In this document: piece by piece, positions 2,180-31,780 of the stretch
Position numbering within the stretch: the stretch's first letter is position 1
How the letters are laid out: each line of letters opens with the position of its first letter
Virus record (IMG/VR): IMGVR_UViG_3300025646_000117
Location: 1-39,627 of that record
Length of the DNA stretch: 39,627 nucleotides
Origin: a virus
Reading direction: 5' to 3' (one strand)
Program-made: the position numbers and the translations under genes
Notes under the pieces: generated by a model
What the model was told of the DNA's origin: nothing
Databases searched by the model: none
What the model saw: the letters and a program-made list of their open reading frames with translations, nothing else

Positions 2180-4027
2180 ATGGCAACTAGAATAAAGTCA
2201 TTTAATTTAAGAAATGGTGTTCAGGTTGATAATGATAATTTCGTAGTAAATAGTTTGGGATTGGTTGGAATTGGAACAACAATTCCAACTGAAATTCTTG
2301 ATGTTTATGGTGGTAATATTAAAACTGAACAGGGTGTTATTGCCAATAATTTGGAAGTAGTAAATTCCAATGTAACTGGGATTTTAACTTCAAATTCTTT
2401 AGATATTACTTCACAAATTAATATTGGTATAACCTCCATTTCTTCTGGAATTATTACAGCAACAACTGGAGTTGTAACATATTATGGTGATGGTGGTAGT
2501 TTATCAAACTTACCAACCTCACAATGGTTAGATGTTGATGTTGGCCTTGGTTTTACAAGCATATACGCTCAAGGATTTGTTGGAGTTGGAACTGTAGATC
2601 CAAGATACCTATTTCAAGTAGGTGGTAATAATAATATAGGTGTTTTTCAAAATGGTGTTGGAATTGATGGAGATGGAAATATAAGAGCAACTGGAGTAAT
2701 AACTGCGTCACAATTTTCTGGAGATGGTTCTCTATTAACCAATGTAAACGCGAATAATATATCTTCAGGAACGATAAGCAATTCTTCACTTCCAAATGAT
2801 ATAAATGTATCTGGAATTATAACGGCACAAACTTATTTTAGCGGAAATCTAGTTGGAATTGCTGATACTGCTACTGATTTAGAACCAACATCAAGTATTA
2901 CCATTCAAGGAATTAAAGTAACTGGTGTTTCAACAGCAGATACTTTATTGAATGTTAATGGTTCAATTTCTGTTGGTACTATATCACCTAATGCTGATAT
3001 TCAAGTAACTAGGAGCGGGATAAGTTCCGTAAGATTGACAAGTAACGGTAGTTTCCCCTCTATCATAACGCTAGGTAGAAACCAAACTTCCAATTTCACA
3101 AATAATGGACAAATTAGATATGGAAATACTGATGCAGTATATTCAAGAAGTACGGAGCAAAGTTTAGATTTTATTAATTTTGGTACTGGAAATATTAATT
3201 TCTATAATAATTCTGGAATAGTTGGACCTTCTGGAAATTATTACTGGCATTCTGGAACTTCAATTAGCAGAATGATTTTGACTTCTGATGGAAAACTTGG
3301 AATTGGTCAAAATTTAGAAACTGTAAATTTAAATAATACTCTTCACGTTGTAGGAACTTCCACAGTAACAAGTAATTCTTATGTTGGTGCTAGTTTATTT
3401 GTAAATACAAATGCTACTGTTGGTGGCAATTTGAGTGCAAACCAATTGAATATTCCAAATTCATATTTTAGTTCAACTAGAGTTGGAATACTTACATCAA
3501 ATGCTTCATATTCGTTCCAAGTTGGTGCCAATCCATTAGTATCTGGTGGAGGCGTATCAATTGAAAATGATGGATTTGTTAGAATTAGAAATGATATCTC
3601 TACAGTACGAAATATTAATTCTACTGGGATTGTAACAACTTCTGGTCTAGATGTTAATGGTAGTGGTGACTTTAGTGATTCAATCTCTGTTGCTTCTTCT
3701 ATCACTAGTGATAGTTCTTACAGCAATAATTTCTATGGAAATGGTTCTAATATTACAGATTTAAATCTGGATAATGTTACAAATGGATCCATATCTGGAA
3801 GTAGAATTAATTCAGATATTAATATTGTGGGGATTATTACAGCTTCTAAATTAGATGGAAGTGAGATAAAATATGATGAAATGATAATTAAATCCGGAGA
3901 AAATCCAGGTATACCAACAGAAACTACTTCATTAAGTATTTTTTATAAAACAAATACAAATGAATTAATCTTTTTTGTAGAAGATCCAATATCTGGTATT
4001 GTATCTACTTCATTAAGTTTGTCTTAA
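2180..4027 (+). CDS. Tail fibre-like structural protein built of degenerate beta repeats
   Basis: 615 aa. The protein is made of imperfect repeats of the cyanomyovirus fibre type: FSGDGSLLTNV, YGDGGSLSNL and FYGNGSNITDL recur alongside VGIGTTIPTEILDV- and GIITA-type strings. These are typical of long trimeric fibre or chaperone-type proteins of T4-like cyanophages (family knowledge). Composition is Ser/Asn/Gly/Thr/Ile rich with almost no Cys. ATG at 2180 follows a late-type octamer, and the next unit is separated by a perfect palindrome at 4072-4097. Probably a virion protein; its exact place (tail fibre or whisker) cannot be told. Confidence 0.75.
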   Translation: MATRIKSFNLRNGVQVDNDNFVVNSLGLVGIGTTIPTEILDVYGGNIKTEQGVIANNLEVVNSNVTGILTSNSLDITSQINIGITSISSGIITATTGVVTYYGDGGSLSNLPTSQWLDVDVGLGFTSIYAQGFVGVGTVDPRYLFQVGGNNNIGVFQNGVGIDGDGNIRATGVITASQFSGDGSLLTNVNANNISSGTISNSSLPNDINVSGIITAQTYFSGNLVGIADTATDLEPTSSITIQGIKVTGVSTADTLLNVNGSISVGTISPNADIQVTRSGISSVRLTSNGSFPSIITLGRNQTSNFTNNGQIRYGNTDAVYSRSTEQSLDFINFGTGNINFYNNSGIVGPSGNYYWHSGTSISRMILTSDGKLGIGQNLETVNLNNTLHVVGTSTVTSNSYVGASLFVNTNATVGGNLSANQLNIPNSYFSSTRVGILTSNASYSFQVGANPLVSGGGVSIENDGFVRIRNDISTVRNINSTGIVTTSGLDVNGSGDFSDSISVASSITSDSSYSNNFYGNGSNITDLNLDNVTNGSISGSRINSDINIVGIITASKLDGSEIKYDEMIIKSGENPGIPTETTSLSIFYKTNTNELIFFVEDPISGIVSTSLSLS

Positions 4028-4071
4028 TTTTTATCTTCAAACCTGACAAACCTATCCTACTCACGATATGA

Positions 4072-4097
4072 CTTCTTGTCAAGGCCTTGACAAGAAG
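4072..4097. terminator. Perfect 13-bp palindrome, probable (bidirectional) terminator
   Basis: CTTCTTGTCAAGG is followed immediately by its exact reverse complement and then ATTTTTG, giving a strong stem with a short U tract on the + strand. It separates the late fibre genes from the next unit. The right arm contains TTGACA with TATCTT 17 nt on, so it may also serve as a promoter, as in the fused elements elsewhere in the window. Confidence 0.6.
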
Positions 4098-4136
4098 ATT
4101 TTTGTATGATATCTTTTTATTCTTAAAAGTTTTGTT

Positions 4137-4628
4137 ATGAATCCTAAGGTAGTAGAAAGACACAGATATAATAAAGACCAAATAATTCAAACTAGAAGAT
4201 TCATATTCACTCCATATTCTTATAGTGAAAAGAATATGAGTCTAGTTGTAGGATTAATTCGTAGGAATCTTACTCCAGACCTTTTAAAGGGAAGAAAAAG
4301 GTTAATGTATCCAGAAGATACTAAAACCAATCGTTGTTATGGACATTGCTATCATTCAACTCAAGCACTTTATTATTTGATGGACACTGATAAATTAGTT
4401 CCTATGAGTGCTGAAGATTATCGTGGAGAAAAACATTGGTGGTTACAGGATGGTGAGAAGATTTATGATGTAACTGCTGAGCAGTATTATTGCGTTGGCA
4501 AACTTCCACCATACCAAGATGGTAAAAAAAGTTCTTGGTATGGTTGGAAAGGAAGACCTCAACAGATTTCACTAGATTTGATGGTTAGGGTTCTTGGTAA
4601 AGATAAGGTTAAAGATTTAACAATCTAG
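4137..4628 (+). CDS. Hypothetical protein with Cys/His motifs (CYGHCYHST, HWW)
   Basis: 163 aa, not confidently recognised. Visible motifs are CYGHCYHSTQALYYLM, then HWWLQDGEKIYDVTAEQY and a terminal basic region. The order Cys, helix, His-Trp-Trp, Asp (KIYDVTAEQ) resembles the layout of small papain/transglutaminase-like folds, but this is inference from pattern only. It stands alone between a palindrome upstream and the promoter hairpin at 4641-4685. Confidence 0.7.
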   Translation: MNPKVVERHRYNKDQIIQTRRFIFTPYSYSEKNMSLVVGLIRRNLTPDLLKGRKRLMYPEDTKTNRCYGHCYHSTQALYYLMDTDKLVPMSAEDYRGEKHWWLQDGEKIYDVTAEQYYCVGKLPPYQDGKKSSWYGWKGRPQQISLDLMVRVLGKDKVKDLTI

Positions 4629-4640
4629 GCCAACTCCATA

Positions 4641-4685
4641 ACTGTCACAAGCCCCCTTGCGGTTCCCCCGTAAGGGGGTTATTAT
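4641..4685 (+). promoter_or_regulatory. Box + hairpin + promoter module driving the helicase gene
   Basis: ACTGTCACA (4641-4649) is followed after 7 nt by TTGCGG (4657-4662), 17 nt, then TATTAT (4680-4685). An 11-bp stem (4652-4662 with 4668-4678, one G.U pair, 5-nt loop) contains the -35 hexamer. The expected transcript start (about 4692) leaves a leader of only a few nucleotides before ATG 4699. Confidence 0.65.
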
Positions 4686-29033: not shown

Positions 29034-29438
29034 TTGGGGATGTTCGATTATTTCAGGTCAAGTTATGACCTTGAAGATTTTACAGATGTGGTTTGCCAGA
29101 CAAAAGAAATTGAAGATGGTATTGGTGGTACGATGACTGATTATTGGTTAGACCCTAATGGAGTTTTATGGAGACCAGACTATAGGGGAACCAATACATT
29201 TGAAGAAATCCCAGAAACCGACCCACGATATAATAAAAAGATGGGTTTCTTAAACTTAAACTATGAGTGGGTTCCAACAGGACAACACGGAAAGTTCATT
29301 CATCATCCTATTACCAAATATGTGGAGATTTATCCTGAACGATGGGAAGGGGAATGGGATGATTGGCCCAGAATGAAACTACATTTTAAAAAGGGTGTTC
29401 TACAAGATTTTGAGAGGTTTGGTAAGACACTTCAGTAA
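29034..29438 (+). CDS. MGMFD-family small phage protein
   Basis: 134 aa. TTG 29034 is chosen because GGAGG lies about 7 nt upstream and homologues widely begin MGMFD. Sequence MGMFDYFRSSYDLEDFTDVV, then CQTKEIEDGIGG and DPNGVLWRPDYRG follows the pattern of a broad phage/bacterial family (MGMFDxxRCxYPL...FQTKDL). Function of the family is not known to me. Ends at a promoter module. Confidence 0.65.
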   Translation: MGMFDYFRSSYDLEDFTDVVCQTKEIEDGIGGTMTDYWLDPNGVLWRPDYRGTNTFEEIPETDPRYNKKMGFLNLNYEWVPTGQHGKFIHHPITKYVEIYPERWEGEWDDWPRMKLHFKKGVLQDFERFGKTLQ

Positions 29439-29482
29439 CTGGCACAGCACCCCTTGTGGGGTGGTGCCTGATGCCCTATAAT
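29438..29482 (+). promoter_or_regulatory. Box + hairpin + promoter (TTGTGG-17-TATAAT)
   Basis: ACTGGCACA (29438-29446), GCACCCC/GGGGTGGTGC hairpin with TTGT loop, TTGTGG (29454-29459), 17 nt, TATAAT (29477-29482). Drives the nuclease/methyltransferase pair. Confidence 0.7.
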
Positions 29483-29503
29483 ACTTGAGTAAAACAAATT
29501 ATT

Positions 29504-30136
29504 ATGACATTTTCTGTAAGCAAACCTTTTCTAAAAAATCACAGTCTTCATAACTTCCATCAATCTTCTGCTAATGAAAAACAATTTATTAATGAAGGAA
29601 AACACCTCCCTGTAATTCACCATCTTAATATTGTTTTCCAAGAAAACTATGGATTGATGATTGATTTTGATAGTATTCAAGAATATTATGGAAATGACGA
29701 CCTTTCAATTTTTAAAAATAAATCTGGAATTGATGCTTCATTTAATATTCTGAATATGAAAACTGGAGAAATTAAAAAGGAAAATTTTACACTTGATTGG
29801 AAAATCAGATTTTTTCATACTTCTATTGTTTATGATGATTTTCTTGCCGAAATTGTAAGTCAAGATTTTGGACACTATTCTGGTAAAATTCCAGTTCCTG
29901 GTTGGGCAGTGTGTAATCATAAGGTAAATGATGCTATTCTATACATTATTCCACAGTTGAACAAAGCGGCACTCATTATGCGCAAAGAACTTAAAAGTGG
30001 ATTTGAAAGTCGTCGGTTTCCTGATAGAAATCGTAAGATTGCTAAAAATGGTAAATATAATACTATTAGCGTTCCAATTTCTTGGGAGAGACTAATTAAA
30101 GTATGTCCAAGTACAATTCTATTCAATTATGAGTGA
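29504..30136 (+). CDS. Probable PD-(D/E)XK-type nuclease paired with a methyltransferase
   Basis: 210 aa. Possible catalytic layout: GIDASFNI (Asp77), LDWKIRF (Asp98, Lys100, a D-x-K version of (D/E)xK), then FLAEIVSQD (Glu116) and VPGWAV. I recall a phage family with the same order (GIDxxL...xxDxKxR...DxLLEIxS...PGW...D.I.Y, ending in a YxTxxVPV strand), which has a restriction-endonuclease-like fold; here YNTISVPISWERLI is present. It overlaps the methyltransferase by 8 nt and shares a private promoter, so a restriction-modification or self/non-self role is plausible. Nuclease activity is inference. Confidence 0.55.
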   Translation: MTFSVSKPFLKNHSLHNFHQSSANEKQFINEGKHLPVIHHLNIVFQENYGLMIDFDSIQEYYGNDDLSIFKNKSGIDASFNILNMKTGEIKKENFTLDWKIRFFHTSIVYDDFLAEIVSQDFGHYSGKIPVPGWAVCNHKVNDAILYIIPQLNKAALIMRKELKSGFESRRFPDRNRKIAKNGKYNTISVPISWERLIKVCPSTILFNYE

Positions 30137-30803
30137 TGTAAAATTTTATAACGATGACTGTATGAACATACTCCCAACCCTTGCGGATGGGAGTATTTCT
30201 CTTACTCTTACAGATATTCCATACGATGAAGTAAATCGAAAAAGTGGTGGATTGAGAAATCTTGATAAAGGGAAAGCGGATATTATTACATTTCCTCTTG
30301 ATAACTTTATTGACGAAATAGTTCGGGTTACTTCTGGAAGCATTTATATTTTTTGTGGTTCGGTTCAAGTATCACATATTCGCAATAGATTAATCGAATA
30401 TGGACTATCTGTAAGGCATTGTATATGGGAAAAAACCAATCCATCTCCTATGAATGGTCAGCATATTTGGTTATCAAGCATAGAAAATTGTGTATTTGCC
30501 AAAAAATCTGGAGCAGTTTTTAATGAGCATTGTAAATCTGCTGTTTGGAGATGTGCTACTGAAAGGTATAAAGAACACCCAACACCAAAACCAGTTAAAC
30601 TTATGTCAAGATTAATTGAAGCAAGTTCAAACATTGGAGATACTGTTTTAGACCCCTGTATGGGCAGTGGTTCAGTTGGAGTTGCTTCAAAAAGGTGTGG
30701 AAGAAATTTTATTGGAATTGAAATGAGTAATAATTACTTTGAAGTGGCAAAAGATAGAATACAAGGAGAAACGCAAAGTATTCTATCTTTTATGGACACC
30801 TGA
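30129..30803 (+). CDS. DNA methyltransferase, beta class (N6-adenine or N4-cytosine)
   Basis: 224 aa. N-terminal catalytic motif IV is LTLTDIPYDEV (DIPY at 29-32, a variant of DPPY). C-terminal AdoMet motif I is LDPCMGSGSVGVA (175-187), followed by RNFIGIEMSNNYFEVAKDRI. HPTPKPVKLMSRLIEAS precedes motif I. IV-before-I order defines the beta class. Target specificity cannot be read. Phage copies protect the phage genome or regulate replication; pairing with the 29504 gene suggests an R-M-like cassette. Confidence 0.8.
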   Translation: MSDVKFYNDDCMNILPTLADGSISLTLTDIPYDEVNRKSGGLRNLDKGKADIITFPLDNFIDEIVRVTSGSIYIFCGSVQVSHIRNRLIEYGLSVRHCIWEKTNPSPMNGQHIWLSSIENCVFAKKSGAVFNEHCKSAVWRCATERYKEHPTPKPVKLMSRLIEASSNIGDTVLDPCMGSGSVGVASKRCGRNFIGIEMSNNYFEVAKDRIQGETQSILSFMDT

Positions 30804-30806
30804 GGA

Positions 30807-30851
30807 ACTGGCACAGCACTCCTTGCGATGTGGTGCCTGATGCCCTATAAT
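30807..30851 (+). promoter_or_regulatory. Box + hairpin + promoter (TTGCGA-17-TATAAT)
   Basis: ACTGGCACA (30807-30815), GCAC...GTGGTGC hairpin, TTGCGA (30823-30828), 17 nt, TATAAT (30846-30851). Sequence after the -10 (ACTTGAGTAA) matches that of 29438-29482, so the two elements flanking the nuclease/methyltransferase pair are near copies. Confidence 0.7.
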
Positions 30852-30873
30852 ACTTGAGTAAGAACAAACCCCT

Positions 30874-31094: not shown

Positions 31095-31514
31095 ATGAAA
31101 CAACAAAACGGATTTTTTGACCCCATTATTGCTCTGGGTTTTCTGGGCGTGGGTGTGTTGGTTGGCATCATTTTTATTGGTGGTCCACAATACAATGTGT
31201 GGCAACAATCTCTTGCTGGTAAGGCAGAACTACAGAAGGCAGAATATACTCGTCAGGTAGCAGTGTTGGAAGCACAAGCAAAGAAGGATTCTGCACAACA
31301 ACTTGCTGATGCTGAAATCATTCGTGCTGAAGGTGTTGCGAAAGCAAACCAAATCATTGGTGAGAGTCTAAAGGACAATCCTGCTTATCTTCAGTATCTG
31401 TGGATTACTCAAGGTGAAGAGAATGCGAATCGGACTGTTTATATGATTCCCAGCAATGGTGGTGCTCCTGTACCTACCTTTGATATTCAACAACCACCAG
31501 CAGTTAAGAAGTGA
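31095..31514 (+). CDS. SPFH/prohibitin-like membrane protein (short)
   Basis: 139 aa. N-terminal transmembrane helix (IIALGFLGVGVLVGIIFIGG), then a long helical region AGKAELQKAEYTRQVAVLEA and IIRAEGVAKANQIIGESLKD, NPAYLQYLWI, VYMIPSNGGAPVPTF. This is the C-terminal half of stomatin/prohibitin-type proteins; the N-terminal SPFH barrel is missing. Membrane scaffold proteins of this kind occur in cyanophages; T4 analogues affect lysis or FtsH. Role here is inference. Confidence 0.7.
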   Translation: MKQQNGFFDPIIALGFLGVGVLVGIIFIGGPQYNVWQQSLAGKAELQKAEYTRQVAVLEAQAKKDSAQQLADAEIIRAEGVAKANQIIGESLKDNPAYLQYLWITQGEENANRTVYMIPSNGGAPVPTFDIQQPPAVKK

Positions 31515-31780
31515 AAACATTCCAAGTAGCAAAGTGGAGTGTTGTCGATGATTTTGGGAAAGAGTTTTATCTTTCCCTTTTTTCTACAGATAAACACTCA
31601 TTTGCCCAATTTTGTTTACAGTTTTCTGTTTATGACAATTTCTTTCAATTCCCGAGGTTGTATCTAACGATTGCTGACAATAGATTGTTTTCCATTAGTA
31701 TTTATGTAGGAAAACTTGGTTTTTTGTTTGATATGTTTGGGTCCAACTGGTCAAATTTTTATAATAATGTGACACTCTAA
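31511..31780 (+). CDS. Small hypothetical protein with GTG start
   Basis: 89 aa from GTG 31511, overlapping the previous stop by 4 nt. Phe/Leu/Val rich, beta-like (EFYLSLFSTDKHSFAQFCLQ, RLYLTIADNRLFSISIYVGK, GFLFDMFGSNWSNFYNN). Similar short sequences occur in cyanobacteria and their phages as far as I recall. Function unknown. Confidence 0.6.
   Translation: MKTFQVAKWSVVDDFGKEFYLSLFSTDKHSFAQFCLQFSVYDNFFQFPRLYLTIADNRLFSISIYVGKLGFLFDMFGSNWSNFYNNVTL

Follow-up and report, generated by a model that had tools for sequence, protein, structure and literature searches.

Do the two overlapping genes at 29,504 to 30,803 of this viral DNA, one for a predicted nuclease and one for a DNA methyltransferase, work together as a restriction-modification system, and do they travel together among phages? 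The window, meaning the whole 39,627-nucleotide stretch that was analyzed, is a 39.6-kb record from an uncultured virus. Synechococcus and Prochlorococcus phages (403 records) match the first 8 kb, in genes for a tail fiber and a helicase, and the region from 28.5 to 32.5 kb has counterparts in Kyanoviridae, among them S-PM2 and DSL-LC02, so the window is most likely part of a T4-like cyanophage genome. A T4-type major capsid gene was found in 2 of the 12 nuclease-bearing contigs searched, most of which are fragments.

The overlapping gene pair

29504..30136, + strand: putative restriction endonuclease with a PD-(D/E)XK fold, 210 aa, called from conservation, predicted fold, and purifying selection
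30129..30803, + strand: beta-class amino-methyltransferase, 224 aa, carrying DIPY at motif IV and DPCMGSG at motif I; its gene and that of the nuclease share 8 nt

Recomputed from the sequence, the coordinates and frames of the two open reading frames (ORFs) and their 8-nt overlap (letters ATGAGTGA) agree exactly with the original prediction. Its assignment of the second product to the beta-class DNA methyltransferases is certain, as the protein matches Pfam N6_N4_Mtase (E = 1.2e-26) and PHROG 67 (E = 4e-59) and its motif IV precedes motif I, which is the beta order; DIPY occupies motif IV in all 53 relatives examined. An internal TATAAT at 30056 was considered as a promoter of the methyltransferase's own and dropped because relatives encode other residues there.

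Several observations concern the surroundings of this methyltransferase. A second methyltransferase, ~30% identical, lies 1 to 2 kb upstream in L014 (2152-2868), L016 (2257-2976), and L023 (1481-2182), and in other phage contigs (L045, L047, L048, and L061) orphan copies sit after a large ORF resembling a uvsW-type helicase. The window itself encodes, at 31095-31514, a small protein annotated as "protease" (PHROG 11227) that is a recurrent neighbor of the methyltransferase in related phages.

A candidate nuclease family

Protein and alignment scans of IMG/VR recovered ~30 distinct relatives of the nuclease, all from uncultured phages and 35 to 76% identical. Nine residues are invariant in 30 aligned sequences (E25, G75, D77, D98, K100, R102, D112, E116, and D121), and these include the Asp77, Asp98-x-Lys100, and Glu116 on which the PD-(D/E)XK assignment was originally based. 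The "PGW" cited with them holds up in its last two positions, G133-W134 (GWA) being invariant, while the proline before G133 varies. Searches of Pfam, PHROGs, NCBIfam, and PDB, of 50,697 phage records, and of 72,556 plasmids returned no sequence homologs, and the family and PDB searches connected the 210-aa protein by sequence to none of the known restriction enzymes; PADLOC reported a weak DruH3 match alone (E = 0.015). In a scan of genome contigs for bacterial homologs, the matches listed included only a 9-kb contig (L092) that carries the pair, and this contig, assigned to a metagenome-assembled genome of Bacteriovorax, is probably a misbinned phage contig.

Fold prediction had been proposed as a check on the assignment, and an AlphaFold2 model of the protein (pLDDT 86), when compared with solved structures, is PD-(D/E)XK-like. 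In the model, D77 lies just ahead of strand 78-84, and D98 and K100 lie within strand 90-101. This placement in the predicted structure is the layout of a PD-(D/E)XK site, and the conserved D...(D/E)xK and acidic residues by which such enzymes are recognized fall in the predicted alpha-beta core. Of the solved structures, the N-domain of Eco15I matches best (Z 7.7, rmsd 2.9, 110 aligned), with I-Ssp6803I (Z 6.8) and PvuII (Z 5.8) as further matches and with the fuselloviral protein D212, the SPARDA nuclease, Hjc, NhoI, HinP1I, DpnI, RecU, EcoRV, and BglI also on the list. Above Z 4.7 the list consists almost entirely of PD-(D/E)XK enzymes, none of them reaching 8, and Foldseek found no match in the PDB below E = 0.01 (best E = 0.013). 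Because no single match is strong, the PD-(D/E)XK call rests on many consistent modest matches together with the motif spacing. Judged from its sequence, the nuclease appears to represent a previously unclassified family of predicted DNA-cutting enzymes. A partial literature search found no paper on such a pair in T4-like cyanophages, in which the family appears to be undescribed so far. A Phormidium phage protein, PfWMP3_05, is also a structural match to the nuclease; its adjoining genes include no recognizable methyltransferase.

The same structural matches could be taken to mean that the nuclease is methylation dependent, cutting host-methylated DNA while the methyltransferase puts another mark on phage DNA. 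The Eco15I N-domain is the top VIA match, and the list also has DpnI and NhoI, the latter of which was solved with methylated DNA. However, the methyl-sensitive enzymes PvuII, HinP1I, BglI, and EcoRV are listed too, such scores fail to tell one kind from the other, and 210 aa leave little space for a separate methyl-reading domain. We regard methylation dependence as improbable.

Conserved linkage to two methyltransferases

If the two genes formed a functional pair, the original prediction argued, they should co-occur in other phages, and in many phages they do. Besides the window, the nuclease gene lies directly upstream of a window-type methyltransferase in 36 contigs, and the 8-nt overlap is kept in nearly all of them (23 nt in L023; L163 left out). 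A window-type methyltransferase follows in every nuclease contig that has downstream sequence except two of a divergent type; two contigs, L007 and L011, end within the nuclease gene. In the divergent type (L119 and L120 = L162, whole), the nuclease is 37% identical, and its gene shares 11 nt with that of another methyltransferase, one of 400 aa. The 400-aa protein of L162, which is overlapped at its end, has a CPPY motif and PADLOC and PHROG methyltransferase matches (E = 1.6e-7 and 1.8e-6) and is without a Pfam match. The nuclease family is therefore operon-linked to two different methyltransferases. As in type II systems, linked nuclease and methyltransferase genes are conserved across genomes and encode separate polypeptides, and neither family scans nor the block shared between relatives added a translocase or a specificity subunit to the two.

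The divergent pair (L162, 927-2685) lies between DNA polymerase-like and RecA/UvsX-like genes of another phage, and the adjoining uvsX-like gene, together with the RecU and Hjc resolvases among the structural matches (Z about 5 to 6), would suit a structure-specific recombination or repair enzyme of the RecU/Hjc kind that shares an operon with a methyltransferase by chance. We consider this very improbable, as the strict overlapping linkage to two methyltransferases and the patchy presence of the nuclease point to a role connected with methylation.

Mobility of the pair and turnover of the nuclease

The pair was found in ~10 upstream and 9 downstream neighbor groups. Two contigs, L035 and L036, are 97% identical over 1.42 kb (3252-4673), a block that comprises the stem-loop/promoter, the nuclease gene, and the methyltransferase gene to its stop codon, and are unrelated immediately downstream of it and for some distance upstream; several further contig pairs have the two genes alone in common. 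Since L035 and L036 share only the promoter and both genes, the pair moves as a unit. In S-PM2 and DSL-LC02, the window gene at 29034-29438 has a relative that stands immediately before a weak relative (24 to 32% identical) of the gene at 31511-31780, nuclease and methyltransferase both being absent from the junction, although this is not a clean empty site because gene order is otherwise shuffled.

Within the pair, the nuclease is the part that comes and goes. It is missing beside many close methyltransferases and is thus not required. On the methyltransferase tree, where L060 was entered as "solo" and its contig starts at the gene, the paired state changes ~11 times, at least 6 of these changes being forced by well-supported branches. 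In L016, a contig of 188 kb that includes capsid and psbA-type genes, the methyltransferase comes right after a relative of 31095-31514 and there is no nuclease anywhere; L030 and L031 are arranged in the same way, whereas L006 and L023 carry the nuclease between these two genes. In L025 versus L032, the methyltransferases are 95 to 99% alike and the nucleases 60 to 76%, a pattern that suggests exchange of the nuclease at constant specificity. The nuclease itself is under purifying selection (dN/dS 0.07 to 0.17).

Such turnover could also reflect a PD-(D/E)XK homing endonuclease that spreads alone upstream of methyltransferases, the orphan methyltransferase protecting against host restriction. 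I-Ssp6803I, a PD-(D/E)XK homing endonuclease, is among the top structural matches; upstream of similar methyltransferases whose gene neighborhoods are comparable, the nuclease is present in some contigs and absent in others (L016 and L030 versus L006 and L023); and in L013, L014, and L019 its synonymous divergence is lower than that of its partner. Yet nuclease, methyltransferase, and promoter move as one block in L035 and L036, the methyltransferase is always present across the ~10 contexts, the divergent nuclease of L162 overlaps an unrelated methyltransferase, and the contrast between L025 and L032 is the reverse of what a spreading nuclease would give. Homing is, in our estimation, unlikely.

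Promoter and stem-loop modules

29437..29492, + strand: stem-loop and sigma-70-type promoter module (TTGTGG-17-TATAAT), directly upstream of the nuclease gene
30806..30861, + strand: following promoter/stem-loop module (TTGCGA-17-TATAAT), which precedes the next gene and bounds the transcription unit
6127, 9761, 12902, 15693, 19154, 24046, 24630, 24944, 25591, 27990, 29437, 30806, 31782, 38880: module copies in the window

The upstream module has its -10 element at 29476-29481, ending 22 nt ahead of the nuclease start codon, and a stem of -20.1 kcal/mol (z -3.2). The two near-identical modules that had been noticed on either side of the pair are real (67 nt, 90% identical), and they had been read as a sign that the pair was inserted as a unit. 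Unit movement stands for the pair, by way of the block shared between relatives, but the modules do not serve as evidence for it: as insertion scars they were rejected, since they belong to a genome-wide repeat and this form is not found around most relatives. The sequence AACTGGCACA, allowing at most one mismatch, occurs 21 times in the window against 2.6 expected, and there are ~14 full intergenic modules (AACTGGCACA ... TATAAT), some copy pairs being 88 to 95% identical and two other module pairs resembling each other just as closely (91% and 95%).

Of 28 related loci, 15 have a TATAAT-type element no more than 55 nt ahead of the nuclease, and many, not all, of these have a stem-loop, often terminator-like, before the element. 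A region-wide promoter scan gave no excess over shuffles. From its promoter sequence, early expression of the pair is likely. According to the account in PMC4503421, which cites Arbiol 2010 and Comeau 2014, promoter-early stem-loop (PeSL) cassettes are reported to mediate gene-module shuffling in T4-like phages. Like the PeSL elements described there, the window modules combine a stem-loop with an early-type promoter and occur in many intergenic copies, and by description only they can be counted among such cassettes.

A probable mobile restriction-modification cassette

The genes overlap and move together, the nuclease family has a second methyltransferase pairing, and the nuclease changes while the methyltransferase stays. 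These features form a restriction-modification signature, and we put at roughly three in four the probability that the two genes make up a compact mobile cassette for type II-like restriction-modification in T4-like cyanophages, one that cuts host or rival DNA lacking the mark. An early promoter of host type, located in the stem-loop module, would give a single message for nuclease and methyltransferase, the translation of which may be coupled through the 8-nt overlap. The methyltransferase would mark a short site on phage DNA, and the nuclease, if it shares that site as we assume, would cut it wherever the mark is missing, so that unmarked DNA, whether the host chromosome, other phages in the same cell, or both, would be degraded. 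Packaged phage DNA would arrive already methylated, which could allow the nuclease to be made first without self-damage. The orphan close methyltransferases of related phages fit a use against competitors, and both uses can operate together.

A broader scenario is put forward more tentatively, and we judge it somewhat more likely to fail than to hold: that an undescribed nuclease family combines with unrelated methyltransferases and spreads among T4-like cyanophages in cassettes of promoter, nuclease, and methyltransferase, that it substitutes, by modification, for the modified-base host DNA destruction of T4, and that it is a weapon between co-infecting phages to which orphan methyltransferases confer immunity. 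Both selective host DNA destruction and intracellular competition are poorly known in cyanophages, and a direct test is offered by a mobile operon that combines a nuclease with its mark and that close relatives have both with and without the nuclease. As the nuclease family lies outside current annotation libraries, such systems would be recorded as "orphan methyltransferase plus hypothetical protein."

Comparison with known systems

Virus-borne restriction-modification is known already from chloroviruses and marseilleviruses, in which the pairs are always adjacent. Chloroviruses such as PBCV-1 have adjacent nuclease and methyltransferase genes, the nucleases being thought to degrade host DNA, and many orphan methyltransferases whose nuclease is thought to have been lost (PMC7019647). 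The window pair resembles these in belonging to a lytic DNA virus, in the adjacency of its genes, and in the many orphan methyltransferases; it differs in that the chlorovirus host is a eukaryotic alga and the chlorovirus nuclease is packaged in the virion, and the family and PDB searches revealed no sequence relation between the chlorovirus nucleases and that of the window. In the GATC system of marseillevirus, an adjacent and maintained pair, the nuclease is transcribed before the methyltransferase, the system is proposed to exclude competing viruses, and orphan methyltransferases are proposed to give protection (PMC7253447). Unlike the window nuclease, the marseillevirus enzyme is related to CviAI, acts at a known site (GATC), and is found in viruses of amoebal hosts. 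Compared with PvuII, EcoRV, BglI, and HinP1I, the window nuclease is without detectable sequence similarity and is carried by T4-like phages, but it is like these enzymes in its predicted fold, in its Asp-x20-Asp-x-Lys motif, and in having a methyltransferase in the same operon.
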